A stretch of DNA of 64,000 nt from Henricia sp. BOLD:AAB3569 (lineage: Eukaryota; Echinodermata; Asteroidea; Spinulosida; Echinasteridae). Shown here piece after piece: positions 1,753 through 62,690 of this stretch. The translations under genes and the position numbers were made by a program. The notes under the pieces are model-generated. The model was not told the DNA's origin. It did not search any database and saw only the letters and a list, made by a program, of their open reading frames with translations. Numbering within the stretch: the first letter of the stretch is position 1; every line of letters begins with the position of its first letter. Location: NCBI GenBank assembly GCA_037783545.1, contig JBBELK010000305.1:310001-374000 (forward strand). Reading direction: 5' to 3'.

Positions 1753-1952
1753 ATTTTTGGTGGGGAGTCTGACGAATGGCGCAGCCAGCTCTCTCCCATT
1801 GGAATCAGAGTAGTCATAGATAATCCCATACAAATCATTGAGTTTCTGCTCCAGTGGGCTCATACCAGCAGTGGACTTGGGTCGTTTGGCAGGGAGCCGC
1901 TTGGGAGGGTCCATGGGTGTGGTCTTGGTCTTGCTGCTGCTCTTGGGGGTGT
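1753..1952 (-). CDS. PBRM1: PBRM1 coding exon 13 (linker and start of bromodomain 5)
   Basis: This exon encodes residues 670-736: a Ser/Lys/Pro-rich linker (DTPKSSSKTKTTPMDPPKR), then MSPLEQKLNDLYGIIYDYSD and LAAPFVRLPTKN, the first helix and ZA loop of BD5. Acceptor TTTCAG|AC, donor AAT|GTAAGG, end phase 0. It is the last PBRM1 exon in the window. I found no continuation (the BD5 PDYY block) between 1 and 1752. Confidence 0.93.
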
Positions 1953-4900
1953 CTGAAAGGCAAGAGTGAACCACTGCTGGCTCTGATCCCAAAACCACAA
2001 TGGATTAGCTGTCAAGTTTGTATGTAACAGTTGTTTATTGACCACTAAAGTGTGACGTCAGCTACTATAGTAACTAAACATTCACTGGTAATCTGAAATG
2101 TCCAAATAAGCACAGGGAAACAGTTCCGTGGTTTTAATGTAATGTAGCGATAATTTTTCGATGGTCGTTGTGAAAAAAAATTATTACAATGTCACGTAAT
2201 TAACTAGAAATTTTTAAAATTAACAAGAAACCCAATGTTGGGCTCTACGCTTTACCAGCCATCGCGATGTATTATGTATCATGTGTTTGTAAATAAAGGT
2301 GGCATTCGATATGGGTCGACACGTGTTTAACCTCGATTCCTTGTTTTCCCCGACTCATCACACCTTGCATGATCCCTCAGGTCAGCGCCGACTCGAGGAA
2401 CAAACTCGAATGCAACTGTTTGGTTTCTCCAACTTCCGCAATATGCTGTTTTTTCTTTGGATATTATTTATGGCTGCGAAGTGAAGACGCGAAAATCTGA
2501 GCATGATCTGAGAGATTCTCTCATTTATAACACCCAGAAACCCTTCTTATGAAATCTGTTCGCAGATTTGTGTACAAATTGGAAAATACGGTATGTACAT
2601 AGTGTTCGTTGGTCGTTATTTTCCAACAAGAAGAGAAACCAACCGCGAATGACAAAAGCAACTCGCACTTCGCGCTGGTTTCTACGGCTGGAAATAAAAC
2701 TAACTCCAAGACCACCTGATTTATCCGAACCAGAAATCTGGTTTGGATAAATCATGTGACCTTGAATTTTTTCAAAATGCTCAAAAACAGAAAATTTGTT
2801 GGTTTCTTTTTAGGATCTATTTAGTTTATTTCGGAAAGACTTTCAGAATAATGTATGGGTCTATTTCGAGCCCAAAATAGCCCAACGAAGCCAGTGTGTT
2901 CACTTAAAGGTACAGGCTCGTCAGCAATGCGCGAGCGCCAAATTCGAGCTACGAAATACGCAGCTCCATAGCAATGGCATGGAGCTGTGTATTTCGTAGT
3001 ACGAATTTGGCGCTCGTGCATTGCTGACGAGCCTGTACCTTTAAACTTGTGTTTAGGGACCGACAGGTGGCCAGAATAATGTAACTATCACTAAGATAAA
3101 AGGGCCTGTGACATGCTAAACAACTTCGTGCCTAAGCTTTGCTTCATAATGACAGATTACTTGTTCAGCAAGACATACTATTGTTCGTTTGGATGTAAAA
3201 TCAATAAAAGGTGGCCTTTTTCAACTTTGAAGATTTCATTTCAATAAATCACAGACAGAGGGCGCTGTTTTGAGTGCATCACATAAGGAAGACAGAAGGG
3301 AAAAGTTAAGAAAAAACATAAGACTTCAAGTTGGACTTGTGGCAAATTGCTGCAGTTTCTACCCCAGTTTTGTCATGGCTTACAGCAGGCAACATGTAAA
3401 ACAAACTCAAACAGCCATGGATTACAAAAGTTTCAGGAAAATTGAGAAAAAAGTGGAAACTTTTGTGCACAGTTGAATGTGATTTTCTTGTGTTTGCCTC
3501 TTGTGACATCGTGACCTTGGTCATGAATATGCATATTCACATTAGCATAAAAACTACAAACCTTTGTTTTAACCCCCAAAGCAAGCTCCAAATAGGATTT
3601 GTATGACTTTAACCGAGTAGAGTGGTTTTGAAGCATAGATTTCATTGATAAAAATCCTAAATAAGGGGGCCCTTTAATCTTTTTATAGCGATTCTTAAAG
3701 CTTTGCAGCGAGTACCTGCTAACATTATACCCAGTTCTCGGCATTTCTCCTTGAAGAGATTCTCCAGCAATTCAGCATCTTTGTAGACCAAGGACCCTTC
3801 CTCGTTGTAATGTCTGGCGTTAGTGAAGAGTAATTCAAAATCTTTCAGCATCACTTCCTCTGTCGAGTACTGAGAATTTGAAAAGGAGAAACAGTGCATT
3901 ATAATTATTCTATAAGGTTGGGTCTATACAGGGTGGATAAAAAAGAAAGAAACCGAGATATTATTGCTAATTGTGATTGAAGTAGGGCACGTATGAATGA
4001 ATGGGAGATATCATCTGTTAGGGTGGAATCTCCTCTTTAAAATGACACCCTAAACATGTCATTATGTTTCCGGTTGACTGAGCAAGGGTCTAGTTTGGGA
4101 TTTGCGCCACTTTCTTCAATGGCGTCCAGTCATGGCCTGAACCATGGCATGGCCTGTTTGGACGATCAAGTATCCATTGGCTAAACCTAAGATGCCTCTG
4201 AAGATCGCCAGAAAGCAGTTGATGTCTTACGAGCCACAATTCTGTAAGGTTACCACCGAACAATTGTGTTGAACATGGTTAGGGCCAGTCCCGGCTAAAC
4301 CATTTTGTCTATGACTGCTGCGTTCTCCCTGCTGCATGCAGGGATTGTTGAATTGCATTAATGTTCTCGAATTACCGACCAGTTCTCTTTCGCCCAGACA
4401 TTGGACTTAACAAAAACTCGCTGCATTCCCATGTAGGACTGAATGTTCTGTTTAAGAAAATGCAGGTTTTTCCCCACCAACATTTTTTTCGACATGTTAA
4501 TTTCCGAGGCGTCCTTGGCTACTGGATACTTGGTCCGGCGTCCAAACAGGCTATGCCATGCATTAAAGAAAGTGGCGCAAATCCATAACTAAACCCTTGC
4601 ATAACATTGATCACTGCTCAGTCAACCGGAAACATCATGACATGATCAGGGTGTTATTTCAAAGAGGAGATTCCACCCTTACAGAGGATATCTCCCGTTC
4701 ATTCATACGTGCCTTACTTCAGTTACAATTAGCAATAATATCTCGGTTTCGTTTTTTTTTATCCACCCTGTATATATAATGCCAAGAAAAAAAGAACTAT
4801 GTTTAGCAATGGCGTGTGCATAATTTTTATTTTTATTTTTTTTTTTCAAAAACAGAATGCACTTAGACACGAACTGTCTTATCAAGCTGCTGTTGACAGC

Positions 4901-7900
4901 AGTAGGGGGCTTGAACTTCACGATGTCATCAAACTTTACCGTCTTTTCCCGGTACTTTTGGCCACAATTCCCCTGGATTTTCAGCAGTAAATACTGTTGG
5001 CTTTATATCTACTTGCTTTATTGCTTGGTATCCACTTAAAAAAAAAAAAAAGGGGAAAAAATAAGCTGCGTCACCACATCATTTTGGGAGACTTCGACTT
5101 GCGCTAAACATAGTTTTTTGGGGGGCCTAATGGTTTCTTTGATCGTTGTTTGGCTAGGTGCTCTATTACAGTCATGTACGTTTTAAAAGACCAATCTCTC
5201 ACAGACTATGAAATTCTTAGTTTAACCTTTTGATGACCAGTGGCCACAAGCGGCCTGAAGCTTCGTCGTTGCGTTTTTACAACGTATCACAATCGAGTAA
5301 TTACGAAAATGTTCCTGCGTGGCCTCTGCCTTGGCCTAACATTCCATCCCCTTTGTACAGCAAAGTCTCACCTTGTCCATTCTTATGTTGCTTTCAATGG
5401 TTTTCATGTCAATAGGATCGCTGATAACTTGGTAGTAGTCTGGGTACAATTTTTTGGATGGTTTTTCCATGAATAGTGCGATAGGGAACCGGCCGTCCTG
5501 GTCCTAGAAATAAAATATATATTATTAGAAGGCGTACTTTCATACGAACAGTGCAAAGTGTTAGAGATTTTTGTGCTTGGACATTGCAACTACTATTCAA
5601 AATTTGCCATAGACCGTGGGGTACCGTGGCTGAGCGGTTTAGGTCATTGACTCGCAATCATAGGTGAAAACTTGGGGTTGCAGGTTCGAACCTCCCCACG
5701 GCTACGGTACCTGTGCCCTTGGGCAAGGCACTCAACCACACTTGCTCCATCCTTCGGAAGGGATGTAAAGCCGTTGGTCCAGTGTGTTAGGTAATGGAAA
5801 CGCACTCTAAAGATCCCAGAGCATTCTTTCGTGAAGAGCAAGGGGGATCATCCCCGGTGTCTCTGGCCATGCATTTCTAATTCTATTTCTTCATGGGTTT
5901 CCTCACGCTTGCGAGTGACAGTGCAATGAGCACTATTGAGGAATCCTTGGTATGAATACCAGAAAGAAATAATAATAATAATAATAATAAACCAAGGCAC
6001 AGGTTATTCCTAAAGCACGACGTGTATGCTGAGCTCAAGTGGTATTGATGTGGATTGTGTTCTGTTGACGTTAACCAATCACATGGTAATACGGTAAATT
6101 CTGTTCATAATGAACTTTTTAAAAAATAACTATTAAAGAGTCTGATATTTCAATTCCGCTGAGTCGTGTAAGTGGTGATTAAAGGCCCACTGTATTATTT
6201 GCAATGACCCCAACAGTTAATTATTAAACGAGTTGACAGGGAAAACCTTACTCAAAGTAAAGATTGAACTGATAGCAACTATCCAATGAAATGTTTCCAC
6301 TCGTATAATTTTACCAGAAAATAGTCCATGAAGATGAAATTATTTAGATCGATTGTAAACGATTTACTTCTCATCTGGGCATCTATGGACGCTGTGTACT
6401 GCGTGTATGCCGTTTCAACGCAATGCATTTTTTAATGTATCGCCTGGGTCGCACACACATGCAGTATGACGCGCGCCACAGAGTGCATGACGCAAGCCAC
6501 GGAGTACGCGACCGACTGAGAACGAAAATTTGAAACACCCAGCTAAGACCGGTAAAATGCATATGGATTTTCATGTTTTTAGAAAACGTGGTACATTTGA
6601 CAGAGCTAAAATTTCTTCGGATGAGTTTGTTGATGTCTTTCTTTTGATTTATAATAGTTTTATTCCCAGAATCGCTCAAAAACAGATCATCTATAGGGCC
6701 TTTAAGCACCACACCACATTTTGCTCAGTTGTGCATCCATGCAGCATCAACAAAACAGTTTGATTCTTATGGAAAATCCAACATACAACTATGCCTTATA
6801 GCTCAGCTGGTACAGCATCTGCCTGATGTGTCAGAGGTCTCGGGTTCAAATCCGATGACCATATTTATCTCTCATCCCACACTTGTTTTTTTCATAAGGA
6901 AAAAGTTTGATTCTGAGGAAAAATCCTGAGGGAGTATTCCACCGTGCCTCATAGCTCAGCAGGTACAGCATCTGCCCGGTGTGTCAAAGGTCATGGGTTC
7001 AAATCCCACACTAGGTTAATTCATCTAAGTTCTAATTCTAACCTGATATTCCACCAGTGTTTGATAGGCCATCTGCATGCGAGCCTTCAGATCAACCTCA
7101 CCCTCCTGCCCCTTCCTGGCAATGCTTCGACGTCGCTTGGAGCTGTCTCGATCACTCTCAGTGTCGCTCTCAATGTCACGCTGTAAGACAAAGACACAAT
7201 CATGCAACCTTGGTCGGATACTGTGTCATAAAATTGACAAACTTTGATTGCCAATGGATATTACATGTATGTATCAAAAATAACAGAAAACATTACATGA
7301 TCTTAACATTAGTCTAAACTCCTCAAAAAAGTTCGGAAAGTCAGGTTTGACTGACGATTTCTCTCTTGTTGCAAAATCATTTTCCTTGAATTTTATATCA
7401 TTGGAAGGCCCTGTTGTTCCTCTTTACGATGATGTGTCATTTGTTATGATTAATCAATTGGGGGATGTGCAGTATAGCGGAATACAGGGGTGGGTGGAAG
7501 GTGAAATGTCACAAAATTCACTGCTATTGTCATGCAGTGCATTCCCCTTTTGCTTGGAGGATGGGAATGTGTCAATGCACATTGACAATAGCAATGCATT
7601 TTGTGACATTTCACTTTACACCTGCCCCCGTATTCAGCTGTGCTGCACATCCCCTAATTGCTTAATCATAACAAATGACACATCATCGTAAAGAGGAATA
7701 ACAAGGCTTTCCAATGATATAAAATTCAAGGAAAATTATTTTGCAACAAGAGAGAAATCGTCAGTCAAACTTGACTTTCCGAACTTATTTGAGGAGTTTA
7801 TTTGACACAAAACATACATGTATACATGTAGTAAGTTACAATAATGTTACAAAACAATTTTTTTTCATAAAATCAAATGTGATCCGTCACGACGAAATGA

Positions 7901-10900
7901 GCGTTTTTTAATATTTGGAAAGAGTAACTCTTATTCTATATGATTCCAAATTGTTAGCCTCATCCAACAATTAGAAACAATTTTCAGTCCAATTTGACAA
8001 TAGCTTTCATTGTGTCTCATAAGAAATTTTAAACATTGCTAATATGTTTAAAGATTCTATCTAAAAAAATTAAATGTTTGCACAAGACTAGGGATGCGTA
8101 AAGTCGCATCCCGCTATTTCCTATAATGACGGTTCAAAGTCAAAACTTTAAGGGGGTCAATTTTATTTATTTTTTTAAATATTTGGAAAGAGTAACTCTT
8201 ATTCTATACGATTCCAAATTGTTAGCGTCATCCAACAATTAGAAAAACATTTCAGTCCAATTTGACAATAGCTTTCATTGTGTCTCATAAGAAATTTTAA
8301 ACATTGCTAATATGTTTAAAGATTCTATCTAAACAAATAAAATGTTTGCACAACACTATGGTGCAAATAGAGTCCACACACCTTTGCCTCCATTTTATCC
8401 AGTTCCTTGAGTTTGGCGTTCATGATTTTCTGGAGTTTCTCAGCGTCCTTGTAGAGTCGGGAGGTAGGGAGGTTATACTTCTTAGCGTTGTTGAATATGA
8501 GGTCTTGATCTTGGGCAAGCTCCGATAGCGATTCGTATCGCTCCATCTAAAAGAGACACACATTCAAATGTGTGACCGGCTCCAGCAAAACCCAACACTT
8601 GTGATGAAAATTCAAAATTTAAGTTTTGGTATCAGCTTAGTGTGCATACAATAAGGTATCTTTTAAAACATGTTTGAGGAAATTCTGATAATTTTTGGCG
8701 AAGTTATGACCAATTAAAGTATGACAGATCAGAAAAAGTGAAACGGAGCTATAGGTCCTTAAAGTTTGACAAACTATATTAGTTGATTATTTAATTTTTT
8801 GTCAATAATATGAGGAATTTTGAGACAGTTCCAACAACAAAACAAATCTTGAATGTATCCCGATGTTGATTCTGCCAAATTTTCAAGTTGGTCCCAGAGG
8901 CCATTTGTTTAGGTTGTGGGCCCATATCACGTAATGGGAAATGCCGAGAAGCGTCGGGTTTTGCCAGAGTCGGTCACATATTGGTAGAAATATGGCATCA
9001 CATTATTCCTCCTTTTCATAATCATAAGGCCAATAAAAATTACCTGTGTTTCCTATTATATACAAAAATATTTAAGATGGGGAGGTGAGAAGTACATGTA
9101 TCTTTTTATAATCCTCTAAATTTGTTTTTGTTTTTCAACCAAAAATATTAGGGTGGGATGATGGACAGTAGTTTCATCCCTTGCATATTATAACAGTTAA
9201 CATACATGTATAGTGCTGGAATGTGGTAATATAATACCACATTCCAGCACAGTACAGTAACTGGTTGAGAGAAGGGACAACACTTGCAAAGGGTTGCCTA
9301 ACTTTGTACGCTTCATGTAAGTCGCCATCTTTTGCAGTTCGGTTCTCGGACTTGAGAGGGTGTGAGTCAGGTCCCAGGGCTCAAATTTCATGAAAAAATC
9401 TGCTAAACCACAGGGTTAGTAGCTTAAATCATTTACTGGACCGACGCTATTTTTACAAGACCAAAGCCACAAGTAACGTGGATATACTGTTTGTTAGTTT
9501 TAAAATGCACTGGACCGCTGGTCTAGTACGGTAAAGAAAGCACTAGACCGAGGCTAAAATTACTGGCCTCGGTCCACCGGTCCAGTGGGTATTTCAAGCC
9601 CTACCATCCACCAGATTTTTACACACTTCTCGGCATGTGGGAGTTTGGAAACAAGGCATCAATCTTGACGTCATCCGTGCAATCATTGCATGGTTGACGT
9701 CAACATCCATTTCAAAATTTCAAATATGGCGCAGCACATAGTTGCAGAGTTTATCATCAAATTTAATTGGGTTGCCGACGTTGAATTTTAACGAGATTCT
9801 CTGATTCTCATGAAGGTTTATGCACCGGGCAATACATCGGTCATATTTTGATTAAATTCGTTGATTATGCAAACAAGTGTTGCCCCTTCCTTTAAGTGTT
9901 TAGAATGTCTGAATTTAAAAAGCAGATCTAGTAAATAAACACACGAGTGTGACACTTTTTCAAGCTTTAATGTGGGTTAAACAAATAATAAAGGTTATGT
10001 AAACAAATCAGGTTTCACGTACCGATAGATTTTGCATAACACGCAAGTTTTCTATTGAAAAATTGTGTGTGAGTTCAAGGAACCGAAATCTTTGGATTAC
10101 GAGTCAGTGTGCCAGGAGTGCACGCGCATGCATGGATGTCGATGAAAGCATGCCACGAGTGGAAATCACCTGTCAATGTTACGTGATTCGAAGGACTAAT
10201 GTATAACACGTCTGAAGGTGTAGTTGTCCTGGCTGTTTATGAATGCATACGGAAGCCAAAGGGCATATAGTCATGGCTTCGAGATCACCGGGGACCTATT
10301 TTAACCATGACCTAGTGCGTCGAACTCAAGTTCCTGTGCCAGTACTAGAATGTGGGTTCGATTCCGGGCCGTGACGGGTTGTGGCACTTGTGCTCTTGAG
10401 CAAGGCACTTAATCACACTTGTTCCGTCCTTCGGAAGGGATGTAAAGCCGTTGGTCCAGTGTGTTAGGTAACGCACTTTAAAGATCCCAGAGCATTCTTT
10501 CATGAAGAGCAAGGGGAGGGAATCCCCGGTGTCTCTGGCCGTTTTGAATTCAACTTAGAAGTTGATAGTTATTCAAATATCTATGTTAATTGATCCCATT
10601 TCTATAATTGGCGGTCCTTCCACTGTTGGATGTGGTGAATAAATAAATAAAAAGCAGTCAATATTTGTTTTATATACCGAAGGCGTAGATTTTTGTCATC
10701 TGATTGGTTAAAAGTAGCGTTGCGTTACACCATCAAATTTTCAATTTCGGAAGCTGGTCTACGGCGGAAAGGTTGGTATTTACAGCAAAATGGTGGTAGC
10801 ATAATCACCCGACAATTTGGTAGCACATTTTACTTTACACTGTTTTCACTGTTGGCCACTTCTGTTATTTCCTTAAGGACTTCATAGTACGAGATCAAAA

Positions 10901-39500: not shown

Positions 39501-39670
39501 TTGGCACGAGCTCAATAGCTTTTGAGTAAGGATGCCGCCAACTTTTTTAAGCACCTTGATGGGACTATATACATGTACATGTTTTTGCATGAGACTGGGC
39601 GTTTGATAATGTTTCATGTATGTATGCTGTACATTGATTGGTAATTTGTTTTTGTTTGGATTCAGGTAAG

Positions 39671-51700: not shown

Positions 51701-54700
51701 GTGCTAAGCAACGCCATGAAATTGGCCCTCGGGCATTACCAAGCTTATGTGCAAAATTTTTTAGAAATGTAAGGCCCGCTTCAAACGTCGCGCTTATGCC
51801 GTGTCGAAATAAATTCAACTTGGCACGACATTGGTACAACGTTAGCACAGCAGTGGCTTCAAACGTCAAACTTAATTGCAAACTCCCAGTCGAGCTTAAA
51901 TACATCCAACATGGCGGATGAGTATTGTGCACGTCATGGACGTTGTGCACGTGTGTTTTCCATTCTGTCCATTGTACGTCGCCATTTTATTATTTTGATG
52001 CACTTGTTTGTTGGTTATTTCTTTACTCACATACGTGCTGCGAGCATGCGCATTTCTAGTCGGAACAAAATTGCGGACCAACTTAGAACTGAAATTAAAT
52101 TCGACACGGCAGAAGCACGACGTTTGAAGCCAAGCCGTGATTGTGCCCCACTAAATTGAGTTAGCACGGCAGACCCTGTCGAGCTAAAATCTTCTGCCGT
52201 GTCGAACTCATTTTCTTGAGCCAAATGGCTTCAAACGTCGTGCTTGTGCCGTGTCGAAATAAGAAAATCAAGTTAAATTTAATTCGACATGGCATAAGCG
52301 CGACGTTTGAAGCGGGCCTAAGTCTCACAGGTAATACTTTTTGCTTCAACTGAAGAGTATGCTATGCGTAACACCATATTTGCTGATTTGTCACTTTGGT
52401 ATTTATTAACTGAAACAATTAATGACCCTGCTGAAAAGTACCTTAACATTGCTGCGAGCATGCGCATTTCTAGTCGGAACAAAATTGCGGACCAACTTAG
52501 AACTGAAATTAAATTCGACACGGCAGAAGCACGACGTTTGAAGCCAAGCCGTGATTGTGCCCCACTAAATTGAGTTAGCACGGCAGACCCTGTCGAGCTA
52601 AATGGCTTCAAACGTCGTGCTTGTGCCGTGTCGAAATAAGAAAATCAAGTTAAATTTAATTCGACATGGCATAAGCGCGACGTTTGAAGCGGGCCTAAGT
52701 CTCACAGGTAATACTTTTTGCTTCAACTGAAGAGTATGCTATGCGTAACACCATATTTGCTGATTTGTCACTTTGGTATTTATTAACTGAAACAATTAAT
52801 GACCCTGCTGAAAAGTACCTTAACATTGCCACTTCTCAAAATGCATGGTGTGCACTGTACTGGTTCAGAATTAGGACTCTCTGGTTGATATGTACTGGGT
52901 TTCATGTTATTTTGAAACACCCCTAAAGCCAGGGGCGGATCCAGTGGGGAGCGCACGCCCCCTCATTTTCAAAACAAAAATAAATAAATAAATAAAAATC
53001 CACTTTTTGTGCACACTTTTCCTGCTTAAAGTGGTTAACTATTGCCCCAGATCGCACCACAGAGCATCTATAATCCATCTAGAAGCCGTTAGGGCTTTGC
53101 GCTACGCGCTCGCTATTTCATTGTCATCATCATTTCATGCTTAAAAAATCCTGGATCCGCCCCTGAAAGCGTAGCGTACATCGACCTTGCAACTTGCAGC
53201 AACTTGCAGCAACTTGCAGCAACTTGCAGCAACTTGCAGCAACTTGCAGCAACTTGCAGCAACTAGGAGCAACTGGTCAGTTGCTTAAAAAAGGTGATGT
53301 ACATGTACATGTACATGCACTTGCAACTAGCCCTGGACGATATCGAAAATTTTGAACTGCGATATTATCGTCGGATGATATCGCCGATATGACTATATAT
53401 CGTCAAGATTTTCAAAAAATTAAACAACCTTGTTAACAATGAACCAAACGAGAAAACGACTACGCAAAAACGATGAAATGACTTGTCATTTAAAATAATA
53501 TTGCTGAAGTTGAAATACTTTGAAGTTCCATCATAGGAAACAAAGCGGCCGAAGTCTGAAGAAACAGCGCATTATCGATCAGCGGCAGGAGGGCGACAGC
53601 GTGAGCCTTCCTCTGTGATCCATTACTCTGATTGGCCAACTGCACTGAGAGCCTGAAAATGGGCGTTATTTTGAGAGTCAAGATGACTGGCTGGGCTGCT
53701 GGCCGGGTGTCCGGATTGGCTGTTGGTTTAAATAAAACTTCCCACAACCATGATGTTCGTGACAAACAGATGGAAGCTTATCTTAGGACGTACTTGTACA
53801 TTGTATTAACTTGTTGTTGTTAGCATCCTTTGTGGAATACCGTCTTGGCGGCGTACAAAGCAATAACCTCTACCTTGTTTTTGGTTTTGAGTGGGGGGAG
53901 GGCGCGAGTGTCTGCTAATCCGACTGTCAATCATTCTGCGGTCAGTTTTCAGTTCTTATTAATCTCTCCGGGCCTGGGTGACTGGAAAATAATCATTCTC
54001 GAGACATAAGGGAGGGAGAGCATGTTTGAAAACAGTAATCAGGCTGTGATTGCGAATCCCTGGTACCCAGTACCCACTCATTTTTGGATAATAACTACCC
54101 TTATGATTTCTAACAACTATTTTCACGTTTACTACTGAATACAATTATGCGGTACAGGTAGTAAATAATATAAAGGTTATCAGAACATCGCGAAAAGTCA
54201 CACAATACAACTTTTTGGGAGAACAAAAAGAATGTTTTTATTTACACATGACTCGATCACAACTTGTTTAAGGCTCAACAAATTAAACGCTGATGGGTTT
54301 TGTCTAGAGCGTGGTGAAGATGGACCAGCAGTGTCACTGTCAGAGCCTTCCTCCTGTTCAGGATCTATTTGATTCAGCATTTCAGCAGATGGGAGGAGTA
54401 CCGGTGGAAATTCTTCAGAACCAACGAAGTCGGTGTTGAAAATGGTGATGCTGATGTGAAATGTTGGGTTATTTATGAGCCAGAGGCTTCATGTATAGCT
54501 AAGGCTGACGCGAAGTTTGTTGTTTACGGACGCAGATTAAGAAATAAACAAAACAGATGATGGGCGCCACTGACTGGCGTTGTCTGTGATTTATTGTCAA
54601 GACCGTGTTGGCTTTATTCTCTCAACTAATTCAGACGACTAAAGTCAAAGACCCCTTAAAATGTATTTGTAAAGGTTTATTGAATCGTCTTTGTGGCGGC

Positions 54701-57700
54701 TCCTCTGTGTGTAGTGGCTGCCTAGTTTACCAACCACATGAAAATAATTTGGCGGCGCGCGCAGTCGATAATCCTGGATGTTACTTCTACATCATTTTAA
54801 CATGGGCATTAATCTACAGTCGGCAGCGGTCGTTCGCGGCAAATCTGACAGATGTTTTTGACGGGCGCCTGGACTGTCATTGTTCGAGTTTTAAACCTCA
54901 AAGTTATGTAGCACTTCGCAAATTGACGATAGTTTTAGAATTATCGTCCATGTTTTTCAAGGTTTGAGAATATCGTCTTTGTCACGATATTTACAAAAAC
55001 AAAGTCGATATAGTCGATATTGTTTTCATTATCGTCAGTCGGCGATAATATCGTGATATCGTCCAGGCCTACTTGCAACTATTGGCAACCGGAAAAATCC
55101 CACTTGCCGCGAGTTTGCTTAAAGGGCCTGTGACATGCTAAACAACTTTGTGCCTAAGCTTTGCTTCATAATGACGGATTACTTGTTCAGCAAGACATAA
55201 TATTGTTCGTTTGGATGTAAAAACAATAAAAGGTGGCCTTTTTCAACTTTGAAGATTTCACTGCAATAAATCACAGACAGAGGGCGCTGTTTTGAGTGCA
55301 TCACATAAGGAAGACAGAAGGGAAAAGTTAAGAAAAAACATAAGACTTCAAGTTGGACTTGTGGCAAATTGCTGCAGTTTCTACCCCCAGTTTTGTCATG
55401 GCTTACAGCAGGCAACATGTAAAACAAACTCAAACAGCCATGGATTACAAAAGTTTCAGGAAAATTGAGAAAAAAAGTGGAATCTTTTGTGCACAGTTGA
55501 ATGTGATTTTCCTGTGTTTGCCTCTTGTGACATAGTGACCTTGGTCATGAATATGCATATTTTCATTAGCATAAAAACTAAAAACCTTTGTTTTAACCCC
55601 CAAAGCAAGCTCCAAATAGGACTTTTATGACTTTAACTGAGTAGAGTGGTTTTAAAGCATAGATTTCATTGATAAAAATCCTAAATAAGGGGCCCTTTAA
55701 GTTCTACATGTACTTTCTGGCAACTAGTTGTATCCAGTTGCGGTCAGTTGCGTCGATGTACGCATTTTTGCAACTAGTTGCTGTCAGTTGCACGAATGCG
55801 TCTGATCACGTGGGCGCACATCGACAACAACAGTTGGTTCGAGTTGCAAGGTTGATGTACGCTAGGCTTCATGCAAACCATGGTTTTAAGCCTTTTCACT
55901 GTAATCATATTGTCCTTGGGCAAGTCATTTATTTCACATTGCCCTAGTATAAAAGGGTGCCAGCAAATATTGATCACGTTCAAATGACGTCACTTCCTAC
56001 AAATCGCCACGTGCATCAGATTTTTGAGCGTATTTTTTTGTGACGCGCATCGGCTGCGCCGTATTTCAAACAAATTTCAAGCAATGCGTGCGCGTGTTTG
56101 GAACATGTTACAGGGTGTGCGTGCGCGTACTTGATAGCATTTAATATGCAGTAGCATTTCTTCCTACGAAGATGGCGTCTGTGAACGTGATCAATTGTTG
56201 GGGAAGTCCAGTTGATGTCGGTGGGAGGTAAGCATGCAATGGACTGGCATCCCATGCAGAAGTTATGCTCCTTGTCATTCCTTGCCGACAAAATCAGGCA
56301 TGAGTATCGGCCGTTTTAGTCACTTGTAGCCCGTCATGTGCTGATCGCCAAGTCACCATGACTCAGGCATTTTTAGTAGGCATTCTATTCAATAATATGG
56401 ATCAATTGTTCTCTCTTTTGTTTTTCTTTAGGATTTCCTAACGTTGGGAAGAGCAGTGTAATCAACAGCCTAAAGAGAGCCAAAGCATGCAACGTTGGAG
56501 CACAGCCTGGAATTACCAAGTAAGTTGTCATGGCAACATTATTCAGAAACACTAAATGGTGGAGATAGCAGCAGTTAAATTACACTTTCAGAAAATATAA
56601 TATTATTCCGTATATTGTAACCATTGGCGCACCATCCCTCTGTTCTGCTAAACTACCACTTATTTAGAATAACCCCAATAAGCATAACCTCAAATACCAA
56701 CAAAAATTGCAGCAGATTTTTGCGGTATTTGCTTAAATGACCTGTTTTTGAGCGATTCTGCGAATAAAACCATTATAAATCAAAAGACATCAACAAACTC
56801 ATCCGAAGAAATTTCAGCTTTGTCAAATGTACCACGTTTAAAAAAAACATGAAAATCCATATGCGTTTTCTTGGTCTTGGCGGGGTGTTTCAAATATTCG
56901 TTCTCAGTCTATCGGGTACTATGTGGCTTGCGTCATGCACTTGTGGCGCACATCATATACTGCGTGCGCGCGCGCGACCCATAAAAATGCATCGCGTTGG
57001 AACACGCACACGCAGTACACAGCGCCCATGCATTTTGGACCGCGTAGATGCGAACCAAAAATAAGTAAATCATTTGCAAACGATCTAAATAATTTCATCT
57101 TTACGGATTTTTTTTCTGGTAAAATTATATTATTTTGAGTGGAAACCTTTCATTGGGTAGTTGCTATTAATTCAATCTTTACTTTCAGAACTTTTCCCCT
57201 GTAAACTCGTCGATTACTTTTTGGGGTCATTGCAAATGATACACTAACAGCAAAAGGATCCATTTTAATTCTGATATTCGACCCCAATTGTGGTTGCGTA
57301 AATATAAATCTTAAACGTTTGTATTTTTTGCCTTCAAAAGAAAGATTTAATTGACCTCTTTGCGTTTTAACATTTCTTTTCCAAGAGCAAAGCAAGAAGT
57401 GCAGTTAGCGAAAAACATCAAGTTGTTGGATAGTCCTGGTGTCGTCATGGCAACGTCCAATAGCGAAGTGGCAATGGTGTTGCGGAACTGCATAAAGGTA
57501 ACAATTTTCATCTACTAGGTAGTTTCTTAATAAAATACCCCTCTACCACGTCAAATGTAAATGGTCCGTCCACACGGACTCGAAGATGTTAACTCGTGAC
57601 TCATGAGTCACATATTAAAAAAAAAAAAAGAACATATATATTTGCGCGCTTAATGTGGGAATCTTGGCGGGACTCTTGCTACACAGTACGACGCTGGCCC

Positions 57701-60700
57701 CACCAGGCCAGCAAGGAAAGCATGAGCCTGTCATCGTTTCACAAATTGTGTGAATGAAACTTTGGAGTGCCGAAGTGTGACGTATGTTGGGGTACTGGCT
57801 CCAAACAAGGCCAGCTGCCAGATAGAACACCATTGCAAATGCACAGGGACACAGTTCAGTGATTTGTCACAAAATGTATGACCATGCAGGGCTCAAATTT
57901 CATGAAAAAATCTGCTAGACCACAGGGTTAGTAGCTTAAATCATTTACTGGACCGACACTATTTTTACAAGACCAAAGCCACAAGGAACGTGGATTTACT
58001 GTTCGTTAGTTTCAAAATGCACTGGACCACTGGTCTAGTACGGTAGAGAAAGCACTAGACCGAGGCTTAAATTACTGGCCTCGGTCCACCGGTCCAGTGG
58101 GTATTTCGAGCCCTGCCATGTTTTCATCTACAAATCTATAATTTAGTAAAGACTGTTACAAGAATGGTGTAAGCACACCAGTTTTAACACTTGGTTGCAT
58201 ACAGTTGCATTTATACTTCTGACTGCAACTGTATGTAAGTAGGCAGAGCCTAATAGACAGGCAGTTTTGCCTCCCATTTGCTCCAGGTTGGAACGACTAA
58301 AACAAAAATCTTAGTGTCGGTTGGTGGAAACTATGCGGGCTGAGACCAACTGTGTACATACAGCCCTGTACATACCTTCATTTGTAAGGAGCGCGATCGC
58401 GCAGGCGCTCCTACTGCGCTCCTCGTAATTTTCGGGGAGCGTAAAAAATAGCGCTCCTCAAAAAATAACGGGACCATCAATGACCAAGTGTCTGAACGCC
58501 AACGCTGTACGGTGCGACTAAAATGGTCGCAATGGCGCCTAAAAATGCTCACATGCGACCAGTGATTAAATTCTTATCGCCATTGGCGACCACAAAATTT
58601 GCACCTTAGTCGCCCAAGGTGGGCATCAGTGATGTTTACGGGCGGTACAATCCAGTGTTCTGCTCTTTTTAATATACTTGAGGCATGCAAACGACGACGA
58701 TTGCGCATTGCATTTTTCCATTTCGCCACGTACAACACACGGCCACAGCTTGTGTGCAATATATGTGCATAGACATACATGCATCTGGTATCCGACTGCA
58801 GCCCCAGACTGGCTCGGCCCCAAACTCGGCCCCAGACCAACTCGGCCCCCCTTGCCTTGTGTACAAACTCGGCCCCAGACTGACTCGGCCCCAATTGCCT
58901 TGTGTACAAACTCGTACCCAGACTGACTCGGCCCCAATTGCCTTGTGTACAAACTCGGCCCCAGACCAACTCGGCCCCCATTGCCTTGTGTACAAACTCG
59001 ACCCCAGACTGACTCGGCCCCAAACAGGCTAAACATTTGATTTTTCCCCAAAAGTCCATATACAGTGTGTTTTCAAAGCGCTATTAGCTCTCCTCGATTA
59101 TCTCAGGAGAGCTATTTAGGGCTCTCCTGACTTTTTTAAAAATGAAGGACTGTCTGTATTTGTGCAAGTGTTATTTCAGTGTGTATTTTATATGGCTTAT
59201 TTTTTTTTTTTTTTTTTGTAGGTGGAATCAATTAACGATCCTATCCCTCCCGTGGAAGCAATCCTAAAACGGTGTAACAAACAACAGGTATGGACACAAA
59301 ACATGATAATATGGATCCTTATGTAACACACATCTTGTTTATTATGGCGCTGGTTGTTGGGCACTAAAAGGCACAGGCTCGTAAGCAATGCGCGCGCGCC
59401 AAATTCGTGCCACAAAATACGCAGCTCCATAGCAAAGGCATGGAGCTGCATATTTCGTGGCACGAATTTGGCATGCGTGCATTGCTGGTGAGCCTGCGTC
59501 TTTAATGGCATTCCTTAAGTTAACCTCAACTCCTTGGGGAGTATACAGCCTCGGTTGCATGTTAGGTACTCATGAGGTCTTTCAACACACCTTTTTATTA
59601 CCCTCATCAGAGGTTTATAAATTTACCCCTGGGAGGAGAGAGGCAATTTTTGACATGAGGCGTTTTCACACTATAACATGTTCGACCCGTGTCAAAATCT
59701 ACACGCTCCCAACCCATGTAGACTTTTTAAAATTTCAACACGGGTCAAATTGGCTAAATTTTTACACTACTAAATGCAACACCAGCATTTTTTCTACACG
59801 TGTAATGTTTTGACCTGTGTATCGTGCGATCATTTCACACTACACACACGGCCGGCCGTCAACACGGGTCAAATTGGAAAATCCCTTGCATTGCGGCGAG
59901 TCAATTTCTTGCTATTTCTTGTCCATCGAGCTGGTTTTGGATAGAATTGTCAGCCCAAATGGCCAACCTAGCAGCTACCTCCTCTTCACTCCATTTGAGC
60001 CTTTTGTCTGATTTTTGCTCAGGTTGGTTTTATTCATGCATACCGGTATGTTCAATCACACCGGGGGATAAAACTATTTGTAACAGTTTACCAATCATGT
60101 ATACTATCTTTAACACAAAAATCATCCTTGGATTTTTTGAACAATTGCATCTATGTGGGTAAAATTTCTGCAGGCTAATTTACCAACATTCCTAGTTAGA
60201 TATATAATGCTACTGTTCTAGGAATTTATAAAGTTTTATCTGTAATGATACAGTGAAACTTTGGTGTTTTTTTTGACAGCTTATGTTACACTACACGATT
60301 CCAGACTTCAGTGATGTGAATGATTTTCTGTCCTATTTGGCCAAACGGCAAGGAAAGCTCAAGAAAGGAGGATTGCCAGATGTTAACAAAGCTGCCAGGG
60401 CCATGCTCATGGACTGGAATAGGTCAGCTCAGGACTTATATAGTTACACCACAAGCACTAGTGGAATAAGAAATAATGTAGTGCACCTACGTCCCATATA
60501 CCACAAGGCTCAAAGCCCACTGGCAGGCGCACTACATTATCCATATTGCATGATCGCAATTAGGATAACAAAGCTATCTTTAGGCGAACACTACACACAC
60601 AACTGCAGCATGCTGACTAGTGCATGCAGCGATTAACACACATGGCAAGCCACATCAGATAGACGTTTCATGCTTGGAATACTATAATTCAATGCATAGT

Positions 60701-62690
60701 TCCGACCTGTCAATCAAGCCGAATGCGCCGACCAATCACAGCAGAGCTAGCAGACAGCGCCTATGTAGGTCAAAGTGCATTGCCTCACAAACAATCACAC
60801 GATTTTCTGCTTCATACAGTTTGTACAGTATTGTATGCGATGATCCTGGTGAATTTTTGTTTCATTGTCGGGCGATTTGCTGTTCAAAGGTAGGAAAGCG
60901 CATTCTAATGAATATATGTCATCCCTGCATTACTAGCCCTTCACTCAGTGTGTGCTATGGTACCTGTCGACCCTAAAACATAAATACCTCCAATGAATAT
61001 GTGCTTTCCATGCCGAGTCCCGTTGCTTTGTACGTTGTGTCGCCATTTTTTGGCGATGGCTTGTGAGCACATAGCAACGGTATCCAAGGGGCGGGGTTAA
61101 CTGGGCAATCTCGGAACTATGCATTTAATAATGCATTATCCAGAGTACAGTAATAGACGGAGGGAGGAGTATATACACCAATCCGGTAATAAGGTCTTCT
61201 TCCCTGTACATCCGCCATAGCTGGGGGGCTTCCACTGAATGAACTGTATGTTTTTGTTGTGGCTGAAGCTGCATTTGTTTACTTCGAACAAGTTGCGCGT
61301 CTTTGTAGGGTTGTACGCGCGCGAAGGCGGGCGCGTCGCGTGTACGCGAAGACGGGCGCGTTGCGTATACGCGAAGGAGGCTCGTTCGTGCATGTAATGG
61401 ATGAGCGCTTTTCGTTCTAACAGCAACACAAAACGCACAGCCCATGCACTGGACGCCCCCCAGCTATGGCGGATATGCAGGGAGGAGATCTTAGTTACCG
61501 GATTGGTGTATAGCCATGGGCAAGTTCGACTATAGTATACAAATAATTAATGTTTATGAGCGCAGTTCACCGAGTTGAATGGAACACATTCTATCTTTCA
61601 CCAATGCACATACAATACTGTACACGCGCATGCACTGAATTTATACAGTGGGCGCAGGTGCAATGGTGACAAAAAATGTATGGAACAAAATTGCACGGCA
61701 AATGGAACAAAATTGCACGGTTAGTGACGTAGCATTAAATTGATTAAATATTAAACAACACGTGACCTGCTATCGTCTAATCAGATCACAAGAATCTACT
61801 TGGGCATTATATAATTAATTATAGACCGACTAGAGTCCCTCGAACCACGGAAATTACCTGATGTAGGTTTAATATCCAGTTGCGGTACCTGTGCCCTTAT
61901 TAACAGGACACTTAACCACACATGCTCCATCCTTCGGAAGGGATGTTAAGCTATTGGTCGAGTATGTTGTGTATTGCTCTCTTTCATAAAGAGTAAGGGG
62001 ATTCACCGGTGTCTCTGGCTGTCGGCTGCCAATGGCGCCACCCACTTATCTTGATGTTTGGGTGGAATACGCTTGTAGATTCCATAAACACATGAGTAAA
62101 TAACACTCAATGAATAATAACACTCAGCGCTTTGAATTACCTGTATTCAAAAGTGCTTAAAGGAGCGTGTCCATGTCACAATTGTTTACCCCCTCCATTT
62201 TTCCCTTGGTTGTTGAGATTTTGAAACCATTTCATTTGTCATATTTTTCTCATTTCCATTCTCAAATTTTGTGCGCTCAATCCATATATATTTAGAATAT
62301 CAAAAAACAATGTTTTGTAAACTAATTTTTTTGTTGGCGGTTACTTACTTGTGGAGCAGTGCAGTGATTACACCAAACATTTTGCTTCCACATTCAAATT
62401 GGAGATAGCAAATTTCCTGTTTTCTTTCCATGCATAGTATTTTGGAGAAGTATTTTATATGTTAGAACAAAATTCTTTTTCTGGAAAAATCTGTACAAGC
62501 TCCTTCAAATCAATTTGGTAAAATCTCATTTGAACTTTGTCTTGACATGACAGCGGTCGTATATCCTTCTACACGCATCCCCCCGAGCAGCACACGCTGC
62601 CAACACACATTGATGCCAAGATCATATCAGAGATGGGCAAGGAGTTTGATATAGGCTCGTTGGAACAGGATGACAAGAACACCTTGGGAG
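39671..62690 (+). CDS. GNL3: Nucleostemin-family GTPase (GNL3/GNL3L), 11 coding exons, C-terminus off window
   Basis: Eleven exons, listed separately, join in phase to about 444 residues of a nucleolar GTPase of the nucleostemin (GNL3/GNL3L) family, which acts in large-subunit ribosome maturation and cell-cycle control. Order seen: basic nucleolar-targeting N-terminus (1-45), lysine/glutamate-rich predicted helix (about 50-103), DARDP motif (147-151), G4 NKID (177-180), G5-like KAS (204-206), G1 P-loop GFPNVGKSS (263-271), G2 region PGITK (288-292), G3 DSPG (307-310), then the family-specific region (330-444). G4-G5-G1-G3 order is the circular permutation typical of YlqF/YawG GTPases. Human GNL3 is about 549 residues, so roughly 100 or more C-terminal residues are missing to the right. 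Invertebrates commonly have one gene ancestral to GNL3 and GNL3L, so the symbol denotes the family. It lies head to head with PBRM1, as in human. Confidence 0.93.
39793..40134 (-). mobile_element. Second tRNA-derived SINE family, full-length, reverse orientation
   Basis: Read on the minus strand it starts GGGAGCGCGTGTGGTCTAGT, has the B box GGGTTCAAGCCCC, then TGGGCAAGGCACTTAATCCC, a 3' region with CAGGGTGGATATGTGCGC, TATACAAATCTAAT and a (TTA)n tail (39793-39820). A 3' fragment of the same family lies at 40498-40595, plus strand. It sits in GNL3 intron 1, 71 bp after exon 1. Confidence 0.85.
40498..40595 (+). mobile_element. 3' fragment of the second SINE family
   Basis: GTGATGGCAGCGGTAATAAT, GGAGCACCCCGCAGGGTGGA and a TATATAAGAATCCA tail match the 3' third of the SINE at 39793-40134 (in complement there). 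Confidence 0.7.
41088..41412. repeat. Dispersed AT-rich repeat (family F), best copy
   Basis: It contains GGCCATTATATCATTTGCAG, GTAGAAATTTCTAC, TTGCATGGTTTTTGTGTTAA and GTTACCATTGCTATCAACAC. Pieces of these blocks, in the same order, recur around 1270, 12190-12450, 16500-16740, 24520-24720, 27600-27960, 31010-31230, 47950-48130 and 60090-60250. It is non-coding and probably an old MITE family. Confidence 0.6.
41518..41658 (+). CDS. GNL3: GNL3 coding exon 2
   Basis: This exon encodes residues 18-64: [14 protein letters not shown], then [17 protein letters not shown]. This is the conserved basic region and the PN.APFKE signature of nucleostemins. Acceptor TTCACAG|GTC, donor AAG|GTACAA, 141 bp, phase 0 at both ends. 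Confidence 0.95.
41824..42600. mobile_element. 777-bp inverted-repeat element with nested hairpin
   Basis: AATAGACCTGTTGTGTGATA at the left pairs with TATCACGCAACTGGTCTATT at the right, followed on both sides by GATTTGCATAAATCCTAGAG in complement. A second hairpin (GCCGCCATTTCGTGGGGCA / TGCCCCACGAAATGGCGGC, 42363-42470) is nested inside, as are arms with CAAATCGGGC(C/T)GTTTCCAGG. No ORF of note. Confidence 0.8.
42640..42850 (-). mobile_element. tRNA-derived SINE, copy 3 (reverse)
   Basis: Its complement contains CCTTTGGAAGGGATGTAAAG and CTTGAGCAAGGCACTCAACC, as in the copy at 5621-5991, with a degraded tRNA head toward 42840. Confidence 0.75.
43018..43299. mobile_element. MITE with TAGGGCGACA ends, copy 2
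   Basis: TAGGGCGACAATTGGGG at the left and ACAAATTGTCGCCCTA at the right are inverted relative to each other. The whole is the reverse complement of 17723-18007. Confidence 0.8.
43300..43721. other. GNL3 intron 2 fragment: nothing recognised
   Basis: Non-coding sequence without repeats or exon-like segments I can support. Confidence 0.4.
43730..44336. mobile_element. 607-bp hAT-like element with exact 8-bp target duplication
   Basis: The ends are TAGCGCTGGGA and TCGCAGCACTA (complement TAGTGCTGCGA), with inner AAACGTTTAAACG motifs near both ends. The 8-bp duplication TTTTCAAT lies at 43722-43729 and 44337-44344. This is the hallmark of hAT transposition. No transposase, so it is non-autonomous. 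Confidence 0.85.
44345..45212. mobile_element. 868-bp long-inverted-repeat element with nested repeat
   Basis: The arms run inward from GCATCAATGGATCGGAT / ATCCAATCCCATGATGC, through GCCAGTGAAGTGTGCGTAAA / TGCACACTTCGCTGGC, to ACGAAACCCAAACAG / CTGTTTGGGTTTCGT and ATATCAAACATACTGACCAG / CTGGTCAGTATGTTTGATAT. Nested between them is the repeat 44705-45003. The innermost arms are related to the element at 12751-12969. Confidence 0.8.
44705..45003. repeat. Dispersed repeat, inverted partner of 1361-1670
   Basis: CTTAACTTTTTTCCCAACTG through GCTAATTCGAACGCTG matches the complement of 1361-1670 closely. It is nested in the 44345-45212 foldback. Confidence 0.75.
45293..45409 (+). CDS. GNL3: GNL3 coding exon 3
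   Basis: This exon encodes residues 65-103, a highly charged predicted helix beginning [15 protein letters not shown] and ending REFERK, matching the coiled-coil stretch of the family. Acceptor GTCTCAG|GAG, donor AAG|GTAAAA, 117 bp, phase 0 at both ends. Confidence 0.93.
45430..46380. other. GNL3 intron 3: nothing firm
   Basis: A short hairpin (CTGCGGTGTAT / ATACACCGCAG, 45478-45528) around a TGACGTCA site is seen. ORFs near 45975-46228 read on both strands but show no family features. Confidence 0.4.
46404..46632 (+). CDS. GNL3: GNL3 coding exon 4 (DARDP and G4)
   Basis: This exon encodes residues 104-179: [34 protein letters not shown], and the G4 start LLLNKI. The Asp of NKID is split with exon 5. 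Acceptor CCAACAG|CAA, donor G|GTGAGT, end phase 1. A 573-bp TTAA element starts 20 bp after the donor. Confidence 0.96.
46653..47225. mobile_element. 573-bp TTAA-type MITE, family A copy 2
   Basis: TTAA (46649-46652) precedes AGGGCCTGTGACGTCC, and the element ends AAGGGGCCCT then TTAA (47226-47229). It is very close to copies at 3101-3673 and 55123-55696. It starts 20 bp after the GNL3 exon 4 donor. Confidence 0.93.
47252..47945. mobile_element. Inverted-repeat element interrupted by a TTAA MITE
   Basis: The arms GTACACTTCAGAGACTTTGA and TCAAAGTCTCTGAAGTGTAA, with TAATGCTTCACGTATTCAAG / CTTGAATACGTGAAGCATTA, define an element of about 690 bp. A 350-bp element (47420-47769) is inserted inside it at TTAA. 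Confidence 0.8.
47420..47769. mobile_element. 350-bp TTAA-type MITE, family E
   Basis: TTAA (47416-47419) precedes AGGAGTGTGACCAGA, and the element ends TCTGGTCATGCTCCT then TTAA (47770-47773). A relative lies at 62161-62503 (AGGAGCGTGTCC). Confidence 0.85.
48490..48593 (+). CDS. GNL3: GNL3 coding exon 5 (end of G4, G5)
   Basis: This exon encodes residues 180-214: [20 protein letters not shown] and the G5-like FKASTQ (human FRASTK). Acceptor TTTGCAG|AT, donor TTG|GTAAGT, end phase 0. Confidence 0.95.
48813..49476. mobile_element. Inverted-repeat element filled with degenerate ACTCGTACCA repeats
   Basis: AAGGCTCTCTCACACAC at the left pairs with GTGTGTGAGAGGGCCTT at the right, and TCTCTGGTGCAAG... 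leads into dozens of variants of AACTCGTACCA / TCGTGGGACAACTCG. It lies in GNL3 intron 5. The antisense ORFs here reflect repeat composition. Confidence 0.7.
49480..50175. other. GNL3 intron 5, right part: nothing recognised
   Basis: Only family F fragments (TTATTGCTATCAACATTTG near 49945) and AT-rich sequence up to the polypyrimidine tract of exon 6. Confidence 0.4.
50176..50320 (+). CDS. GNL3: GNL3 coding exon 6 (linker to P-loop)
   Basis: This exon encodes residues 215-262, including [17 protein letters not shown] and TAITVGIV, the strand leading into the P-loop. Acceptor TCCAACAG|TCC, donor G|GTAAGA, end phase 1. It is followed by the longest intron of the gene (6.1 kb), filled with nested transposons. 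Confidence 0.94.
50498..51441. mobile_element. 944-bp pogo/Tigger-like element (TA flanks)
   Basis: CAGTAAAATCTCATTAAGTC at the left pairs with GACTTAACGCGATTTTACTG at the right, with TA on both outer sides. Each end also carries GAGTTCGAGTTAAACGGAG-type motifs. The 154-residue frame at 50761 lacks transposase motifs, so the element is non-autonomous. Confidence 0.8.
51491..51728. mobile_element. 238-bp MITE with GGGCCAATTTCATGGCGTTG ends
   Basis: GGGCCAATTTCATGGCGTTG at the left is the complement of CAACGCCATGAAATTGGCCC at the right. Both arms also carry GCTTAGCACGAAAATTTGCT. Confidence 0.85.
51773..52318. mobile_element. PIF/Harbinger-like MITE, copy 2 (TAA target duplication)
   Basis: TAA (51770-51772) precedes GGCCCGCTTCAAACGTCGCG, and the element ends CGCGACGTTTGAAGCGGGCC then TAA (52319-52321). 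It is the same family as 543-1244. Its right two-thirds and the adjacent non-element sequence are duplicated in tandem (see 52037-52831). Confidence 0.85.
52037..52831 (+). repeat. Tandem duplication of about 400 bp spanning the end of the Harbinger-like MITE
   Basis: The segment from GCTGCGAGCATGCGCATTTC (52037) to GAAAAGTACCTTAACATTGC (52452) is repeated at 52453-52831. The second unit lacks about 36 bp (around TCTTCTGCCGTGTCGAAC). Because the junction runs through the MITE end, the duplication came after insertion. Confidence 0.85.
53181..53264 (+). repeat. 10-bp tandem repeat (CAACTTGCAG)n
   Basis: About eight uninterrupted units, ending in variants CAACTAGGAG and CAACTGGTCAG. It is subterminal to the foldback element. 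Confidence 0.95.
53328..55071. mobile_element. 1.74-kb hAT-like element with exact 8-bp target duplication
   Basis: The ends are TAGCCCTGGACGATATCG and GATATCGTCCAGGCCTA, with further GATATCG/CGATAT pairing for about 70 bp. The 8-bp target duplication CTTGCAAC lies at 53320-53327 and 55072-55079. The interior has scraps of open frame (a minus-strand stretch near 54300 with [18 protein letters not shown]) but no recognisable hAT transposase. Non-autonomous or decayed. Confidence 0.88.
55123..55696. mobile_element. 574-bp TTAA-type MITE, family A copy 3
   Basis: TTAA (55119-55122) precedes AGGGCCTGTGACATGC, and the element ends AAGGGGCCCT then TTAA (55697-55700). Copies at 3101-3673 and 46653-47225. 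Confidence 0.93.
55870..56431. other. GNL3 intron 6, right part: nothing firm
   Basis: GCGCG-rich stretch at 56040-56130 and ordinary intron up to the exon 7 polypyrimidine tract. No repeats with clear ends. Confidence 0.4.
56432..56519 (+). CDS. GNL3: GNL3 coding exon 7 (G1 P-loop, G2)
   Basis: This exon encodes residues 263-291: [16 protein letters not shown], then [18 protein letters not shown] is the GxxxxGKS nucleotide-binding loop. Acceptor TTCTTTAG|GA, donor AA|GTAAGT, end phase 2, with Lys292 completed by exon 8. Confidence 0.96.
56690..57255. mobile_element. TTAA-type MITE family B, diverged copy 2 (reverse)
   Basis: The complement of this stretch aligns with 6183-6701: GACATCAACAAACTCATCCG, ATGAAAATCCATATGCG, GCAAACGATCTAAATAATTTC-type blocks and GGGGTCATTGCAAATGATA. 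The termini are degraded. Confidence 0.65.
57386..57497 (+). CDS. GNL3: GNL3 coding exon 8 (G3)
   Basis: This exon encodes residues 292-329: [20 protein letters not shown], the G3 motif DSPG (D307-G310), then [11 protein letters not shown]. The acceptor TTTTCCAAG|A uses AAG rather than CAG but is the only phase-compatible choice I see. Donor AAG|GTAACA. Confidence 0.93.
57886..58115. mobile_element. hAT-like MITE (CAGGGCTC ends), copy 2
   Basis: CAGGGCTCAAATTTCATG at the left, GGTATTTCGAGCCCTG at the right. It is over 90% alike by eye to 9375-9602, same orientation. It lies in GNL3 intron 8. Confidence 0.7.
58795..59036 (+). repeat. 43-bp minisatellite, about five units
   Basis: Units of 43 bp contain ATTGCCTTGTGTACAAACTC and CCCAGACTGACTCGGCCCCA. 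Some are shortened or carry ACCAACTCGG in place of GACTGACTCGG. The antisense and sense open frames across it are repeat artefacts. Confidence 0.9.
59222..59287 (+). CDS. GNL3: GNL3 coding exon 9
   Basis: This 66-bp exon encodes residues 330-351 ([20 protein letters not shown]). It corresponds to human IEVVKPMEAASAILSQ and is even closer to GNL3L-type sequences. A long T-tract precedes the acceptor TTGTAG|GTG; donor CAG|GTATGG. Confidence 0.93.
59367..59502. mobile_element. Hairpin MITE, copy 2 of 2908-3040
   Basis: AGGCACAGGCTCGTAAGCAA at the left and TTGCTGGTGAGCCTGCGTCT at the right, with GCAGCTCCAT / ATGGAGCTGC inside. TTAA flanks the right side; the left flank is TAAA. It lies 79 bp after GNL3 exon 9. 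Confidence 0.8.
59650..60090. repeat. GNL3 intron 9: degenerate repeat with ACACGGGTCAAATTGG motifs
   Basis: ACACGGGTCAAATTGG occurs at about 59738 and 59863, with inverted variants (GACCCGTGTCAAA, 59684) and TTTTCACACTA/TTTCACACTAC starts. It is probably one or two old inverted-repeat elements, with unclear boundaries. Confidence 0.5.
60280..60422 (+). CDS. GNL3: GNL3 coding exon 10
   Basis: This exon encodes residues 352-398: [20 protein letters not shown] and [19 protein letters not shown]. It matches the human Y-VP--- and RRG--KGG-PNVE-AA block after the GTPase core. Acceptor TTTGACAG|CTT; donor AG|GTCAGC, end phase 2, completed by exon 11. Confidence 0.95.
60692..61124. mobile_element. 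Inverted-repeat element, family D copy 3
   Basis: It starts ATGCATAGTTCCGACCTGTC and ends ATCTCGGAACTATGCAT. Same orientation as 37825-38297. GNL3 intron 10. Confidence 0.88.
61205..61480. repeat. Hairpin element with ATCCGCCATAGCTGGGGGGC arms
   Basis: ATCCGCCATAGCTGGGGGGC (about 61209) pairs with GCCCCCCAGCTATGGCGGAT (about 61457). CGCG-rich repeats (GCGAAGGCGGGCGCG) lie in the loop. The arms resemble sequence near 22562-22590. Confidence 0.7.
61845..62110 (+). mobile_element. tRNA-derived SINE, copy 4 (degraded)
   Basis: CCATCCTTCGGAAGGGATGT, GTTAAGCTATTGGTCGAG and CGGTGTCTCTGGCTG match the body of the copy at 5621-5991; the tRNA head is decayed. Confidence 0.7.
62161..62503. mobile_element. 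TTAA-type MITE, family E, diverged copy
   Basis: TTAA (62157-62160) precedes AGGAGCGTGTCCATG, and the right end reads GTACAAGCTCCT then TCAA (a degraded TTAA). Related to 47420-47769. It ends about 50 bp before the acceptor of GNL3 exon 11. Confidence 0.6.
62554..62690 (+). CDS. GNL3: GNL3 coding exon 11, last in window
   Basis: This exon encodes residues 399-444: [11 protein letters not shown], then [13 protein letters not shown], comparable to the human YYCHPP and SGFNLEEL region. Acceptor CATGACAG|CGG, donor G|GTGAGT, end phase 1. The remaining C-terminal exons should lie beyond 64000; none is visible between 62691 and 64000. Confidence 0.92.

Follow-up and report, generated by a model that had tools for sequence, protein, structure and literature searches.

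Divergent PBRM1 and nucleostemin genes in a sea star contig: a probably ancestral linkage and the question of a shared promoter

The stretch of DNA considered here, 64,000 nucleotides from the sea star Henricia sp. (contig JBBELK010000305.1; hereafter the window), carries a PBRM1 gene and a nucleostemin gene that diverge from a common interval, raising the question of whether this arrangement is shared with vertebrates by inheritance and, if so, whether a common promoter accounts for its persistence. The first-pass annotation had likened the locus to human 3p21.1, where it described PBRM1 and GNL3 as adjacent and divergent; human PBRM1 lies on the minus strand and GNL3 on the plus strand. The adjacency is upheld by published coordinates, with PBRM1 at chr3:52579383–52719615 and GNL3 at chr3:52719936–52728513, separated by a gap of 320 bp (table in PMC11182099).

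Two genes on opposite strands

PBRM1 was identified on the minus strand as 12 coding exons that begin with an ATG at 28966, descend to 1753 and match human residues 15–705. In tblastn searches with the human PBRM1 and nucleostemin proteins, each stretch of PBRM1 had its best match on the minus strand, and these matches kept the order expected, residues 49–89 lying at 27287 and residues 649–691 at 1753, with a best E of 2.8e-16; the piece at 24910–24806 had an E of only 0.010, and the bromodomains cross-matched one another out of order at lower scores. The spliced product aligns with the solved human PBRM1 chain 7y8r_U (whole-chain E 9.7e-167), residues 9–308 of the query corresponding to chain residues 15–289 and residues 303–666 to chain residues 330–705. 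Four bromodomains, with the beginning of a fifth, follow one another in human order, and Pfam Bromodomain exceeded its cut-off in six of the seven PBRM1 stretches scanned, the seventh having been out of frame.

The first coding exon of PBRM1 (28850–28970, minus strand, as are all that follow), with the acceptor ctctatgcaag and the donor GTGAGT, is without a tblastn match of its own and is placed by its in-phase joining to the next exon and by a weak alignment of the N-terminus. Bromodomain 1 is encoded at 27196–27293 (tblastn, splice sites) and 26232–26379 (tblastn; Pfam Bromodomain 57.5 bits), with its end and the sequence beyond it at 24746–24901, an exon supported by the weak tblastn match at E 0.010 and by the structure-chain alignment. 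The first and second parts of bromodomain 2 lie at 16114–16365 and 12974–13152, and those of bromodomain 3 at 11597–11869 and 8382–8546 (tblastn, Pfam and splice sites in all four cases); the exon at 11597–11869 is out of phase with the one preceding it. A linker and the start of bromodomain 4 occupy 7043–7180 (splice sites, 7y8r_U alignment), followed by bromodomain 4 at 5372–5503 (tblastn, splice sites), its end at 3731–3869 (tblastn, Pfam, splice sites), and a linker with the start of bromodomain 5 at 1753–1952 (tblastn, splice sites). AG precedes and GT follows all 12 exons, and the phases agree at every junction but that from 12974 to 11869, where an exon, or the end of one, is missing. 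Human PBRM1 has a bromodomain 6, two BAH domains and an HMG box; this remainder was sought in 1–1752 and none of it was found there, and the missing C-terminal domains would lie beyond the left edge of the window.

The nucleostemin gene lies on the plus strand between an ATG at 39671 and position 62690, in 11 coding exons, and its tblastn pieces ascend in order on that strand from 41506 to 62686. Its first coding exon (39666–39721) follows the acceptor-like ttggattcag ending at 39665 and closes with the donor GTGAGT; a start of the gene only at 41518 was rejected, this first exon joining in frame. The exon at 41518–41658 encodes the GN3L_Grn1 domain (tblastn, Pfam), that at 45293–45409 a charged basic/acidic region, and that at 46404–46632 the DARDPLG motif and the G4 motif NKI(D), both of the latter exons being placed by tblastn and splice sites. 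The same two lines of evidence place the exons at 48490–48593, 50176–50320, 59222–59287, 60280–60422 and 62554–62690, as well as that at 57386–57497, which carries the G3 motif DSPG; the G1 motif GFPNVGKS lies at 56432–56519 (tblastn, Pfam, splice sites). All ten acceptors are AG and all 11 donors GT, and the phases yield a product of 444 aa without a stop, in which the GTPase motifs stand in the circularly permuted order G4–G1–G3. The spliced protein matches human GNL3 chain 8fkp_NB over residues 10–437 (E 1.1e-100) and Pfam GN3L_Grn1 at 69.2 bits (cut-off 22.3). Further C-terminal exons were sought in 62691–64000 and none was found; with no 3′ end found for either PBRM1 or nucleostemin, both apparently continue beyond the edges of the window. 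The placement of PBRM1 on the minus strand and nucleostemin on the plus strand, diverging, as first proposed, is thus borne out by tblastn, splice sites, and the matches to 7y8r_U and 8fkp_NB.

Further elements were noted in the window. A repeat of ~580 bp is present in three copies 96–97% identical (3099–3677, 46648–47230 and 55118–55701), in introns of both genes, and is a recently active element. Long palindromic elements at 7315–7800, 31949–32405, 39277–39518 and 51491–51728, which match themselves on the opposite strand at 73–88%, resemble foldback elements or MITEs, and one of them stops ~150 bp short of the exon with the nucleostemin ATG. A tRNA-Thr-like sequence with the anticodon GGT, unusual among eukaryotic tRNA genes, lies within a PBRM1 intron at 19704–19776 and may form the head of a SINE of tRNA origin. 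Another tRNA-like match, on the minus strand at 49597–49674, is weaker and falls short of the family threshold. Human GNL3 hosts snoRNAs; a search of the nucleostemin introns here gave 19 matches (E up to 5), all short of the gathering score of their family, and 11 of the 19 fell at 51489–51728, 52227–52691 or 59399–59471, which are sites of self-complementary repeats.

The interval and its promoters

Between the ATG at 28966 and that at 39671 lie 10,704 bp, in agreement with the 10.7 kb of the first-pass annotation. The earlier statement that no other gene intervenes also holds as far as recognition by Pfam extends: a six-frame scan of 29001–39000 returned no family above its cut-off, and an intervening gene was rejected, two matches that fell below their cut-offs being judged chance. 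The interval proper (28971–39670) has no recognised gene within the stretch scanned, and probably consists of 5′-UTR introns and one or more promoters.

Evidence for such introns comes from the sequence directly before each start codon. The first coding exon of PBRM1 opens with gagcATG immediately after tttttctctatgcaag, and in nucleostemin ttgtttggattcag stands five bases upstream of the ATG. Scored with a matrix built from 19 acceptors of the two genes (two PBRM1 acceptors left out), the sites reach 6.9 bits for PBRM1 and 11.1 bits for nucleostemin, both inside the span of 0 to 17 obtained for the 19 when each was left out in turn. An equal or better acceptor lies at most 12 bases upstream of 41 of the 2746 ATGs in the window for the PBRM1 site and of 7 of the 2746 for the nucleostemin site. 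Some other AGs within the interval outscore the two sites: on the plus strand 1 of 451, on the minus strand 5 of 523. The CAG/GTAAG before the nucleostemin ATG allows two readings, acceptor and donor. Good acceptors four to five bases before both ATGs make it probable that both ATG exons are second exons; much of the 10.7 kb is then probably 5′-UTR intron, not stretched promoter, and the distance between the ATGs need not be that between the transcription starts.

The interval exceeds the largest introns identified in the two genes, 8.4 kb in PBRM1 (median ~1.5 kb) and 6.1 kb in nucleostemin (median ~1.8 kb). Its size had at first been ascribed to inflation by transposons, an explanation that now appears doubtful: window-internal repeats, counted only for families with at least two copies inside the window, cover 2315 of 10,700 bases (21.6%), whereas in the PBRM1 and nucleostemin parts they cover 33.9% and 32.2%, respectively, and acceptors stand before both ATGs. 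The explanation is probably mistaken; at the least, it is not one that sets the interval apart. A 16-bp minisatellite, CTTTGCCCCATTTCCA, was observed at 34539–35137 (37.7 copies, 96% matches, ~600 bp), and 2.8 copies of a similar unit occur on the opposite strand at 37750–37793.

The interval's highest CpG observed/expected values, 1.43–1.59, fall at 29301–30000, just upstream of the exon that bears the PBRM1 ATG. They reach or exceed the window's 98th percentile, in sequence that is only moderately GC-rich (37–45%). This stretch could be a candidate promoter, of PBRM1 alone and far from nucleostemin, and a second CpG peak at 33201–33600 (observed/expected 1.52) could represent a promoter of its own. 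In a scan of the interval for 15 promoter motifs (no shuffle control), NRF1, ETS and TCTCGCGAGA sites were absent; CACGTG occurred three times, TGACGTCA twice, CCAAT-type motifs three times, GGGCGG five times, TATA-like motifs six times and AAGATGGCG once. The motif scan brings out no obvious promoter, and neither it nor the CpG profile reveals a clear shared one.

Since both ATG exons resemble second exons, there is room for the transcription starts to be close. Non-coding first exons of PBRM1 and nucleostemin could lie near each other within the 10.7 kb, one bidirectional housekeeping promoter would start both genes, the bulk of the 10.7 kb would be 5′-UTR intron of PBRM1, and a chromosome break between the two would harm one or both of them; as a whole, this arrangement is put forward tentatively, at a little short of even confidence. 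No report of a bidirectional PBRM1/GNL3 promoter was found in the open-licence papers searched.

Inheritance, chance or artefact

The divergent linkage of PBRM1 and nucleostemin was, we consider it likely, inherited from an ancestor predating the vertebrate GNL3/GNL3L duplication, as judged by comparison with one other lineage, human, through protein sequences, PDB chains and a published table; the age suggested in the first-pass annotation, early deuterostomes or before, may apply. An assembly artefact, in which the window joins two scaffolds, would be favoured by the 3-mer profile of the interval, which stands apart from both gene parts (distances of 0.105 and 0.109, as against 0.054 between the PBRM1 and nucleostemin parts), although this profile is that of a shorter sequence which includes the minisatellite of ~600 bp. 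The window contains no N, the gene parts are close to each other in 3-mers, and 47 repeat alignments connect the PBRM1 and nucleostemin territories, the 15 longest of these, which are the ones listed, being 69–97% identical; such sharing of repeats places both gene parts in a single genome. That the window is a chimera of species is therefore most unlikely; a misjoin within one genome is unlikely too, and a chance misjoin would hardly yield these two genes in the human arrangement, so that artefact overall is regarded as extremely improbable. That the adjacency arose twice, once in this lineage and once on the way to vertebrates, is scarcely more credible: the chance for two named genes among ~20,000 to meet in a given orientation is about 1/10,000 or less, a rough estimate that is not drawn from data and would be higher had both genes always shared one chromosome. 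No report of the PBRM1/GNL3 pairing in invertebrates was found in the open-licence papers searched.

A weightier alternative accepts the inheritance and differs only in the step of the shared promoter: in a slowly rearranging genome the pair would have stayed together without function, each gene with a promoter of its own. Chromosome-scale gene content is long kept in animals, and the 10.7 kb between the ATGs, the lack of a promoter motif cluster, and the position of the CpG-rich stretch (29301–30000) just upstream of PBRM1 all speak for such passive persistence; the annotated human 5′ ends only 320 bp apart, and the resemblance of both ATG exons here to second exons, speak against it. We hold this functionless linkage to be a serious possibility, if one that we would not favour. 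A shared promoter plausibly remains the best single reason for the kept arrangement, passive persistence being about as likely. The fullest version of the shared-promoter reading would make the locus a regulatory unit predating vertebrates, in which one bidirectional promoter beside the non-coding first exon or exons has served a PBAF subunit and a stem-cell and ribosome-assembly GTPase since at least the bilaterian ancestor, with the 10.7 kb mainly intron 1 of PBRM1 and vertebrate GNL3 keeping the ancestral locus; taken together, these steps are rather unlikely, the CpG-rich stretch at 29301–30000 weighing against them.

Nucleostemin type and comparison with known systems

The plus-strand gene looks, from its domains and identities, like the pre-duplication (invertebrate) type of nucleostemin, older than the split of GNL3 and GNL3L. 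GN3L_Grn1 scores 69.2 bits here and 74.3 bits in human GNL3, and is absent among the matches of human GNL3L, while in the GTPase part identity is greater to GNL3L (133/228) than to GNL3 (99/223). The combination of a GNL3-like N-terminus with a GNL3L-like GTPase, as described for invertebrate GNL3 (PMC9449814), supports a gene that predates the split and a host outside the vertebrates. Assignment to vertebrate GNL3L was rejected on the presence of GN3L_Grn1. Scans of two contig collections added no animal locus: among viral contigs no relative was found, and among genome contigs there was one archaeal GTPase, which is uninformative.

Whether the heir of invertebrate GNL3 is vertebrate GNL3L or nucleostemin is in dispute (as set out in PMC9449814). 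An ancestral linkage would single out the vertebrate GNL3 locus, and not that of GNL3L, as the one that kept the old neighbour, and position beside PBRM1 would be sequence-independent evidence favouring nucleostemin's locus. Should both vertebrate copies derive from whole-genome duplication, both would be heirs, one of which kept PBRM1, and neither would be more 'original'. GNL3L appears together with ITIH6 in a gene list of the buffalo X chromosome (PMC10740893), and GNL3 lies near ITIH1 on human chromosome 3 (PMC11182099), pairings that would fit the duplication of an entire block, the second PBRM1 having since been lost. Human PBRM1 and GNL3 are both named at the 3p21 locus in psychiatric and cognitive association studies (including PMC6906185), and a shared promoter, if true, would matter for assigning variants there.

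Conserved divergently paired genes offer one frame of comparison. As in those treated in PMC2670823, the genes here are of housekeeping type and lie on opposite strands with facing 5′ ends, and no gene is recognised between them in the Pfam-scanned 29001–39000; those pairs are defined by starts less than 1,000 bp apart, whereas the distance measured here is the 10,704 bp between the ATGs. By the counts given in that paper, 12 human divergent pairs are fully conserved in Drosophila, 176 having kept both orthologues and lost the divergent relation, and nine are fully conserved in Caenorhabditis elegans; a pair kept beyond vertebrates would therefore be uncommon, and of a known kind. Few divergent pairs persist all the way from invertebrates to human, and those that do may be a sign of shared regulation.

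The arrangement at human 3p21.1 is alike in the adjacency of the same two genes and in their divergence. Its annotated 5′ ends are 320 bp apart in the PMC11182099 table, whereas at the sea star locus the measured span is the 10.7 kb from ATG to ATG, and the GTPase is of the pre-duplication type and not vertebrate GNL3. The closest likeness for that GTPase is the Hydractinia GNL3 of PMC9449814, presented there as an invertebrate pro-orthologue, which has the same GN3L_Grn1 domain and permuted GTPase. Invertebrate GNL3 is described in that paper as somewhat nearer to GNL3L overall, as is the gene here, the values for the Hydractinia protein being 34.7% to human NS and 38.4% to human GNL3L. The case made there rests on sequence and domains, the string 'synten' being absent from its main text, and to these the present locus would add the position of the gene.
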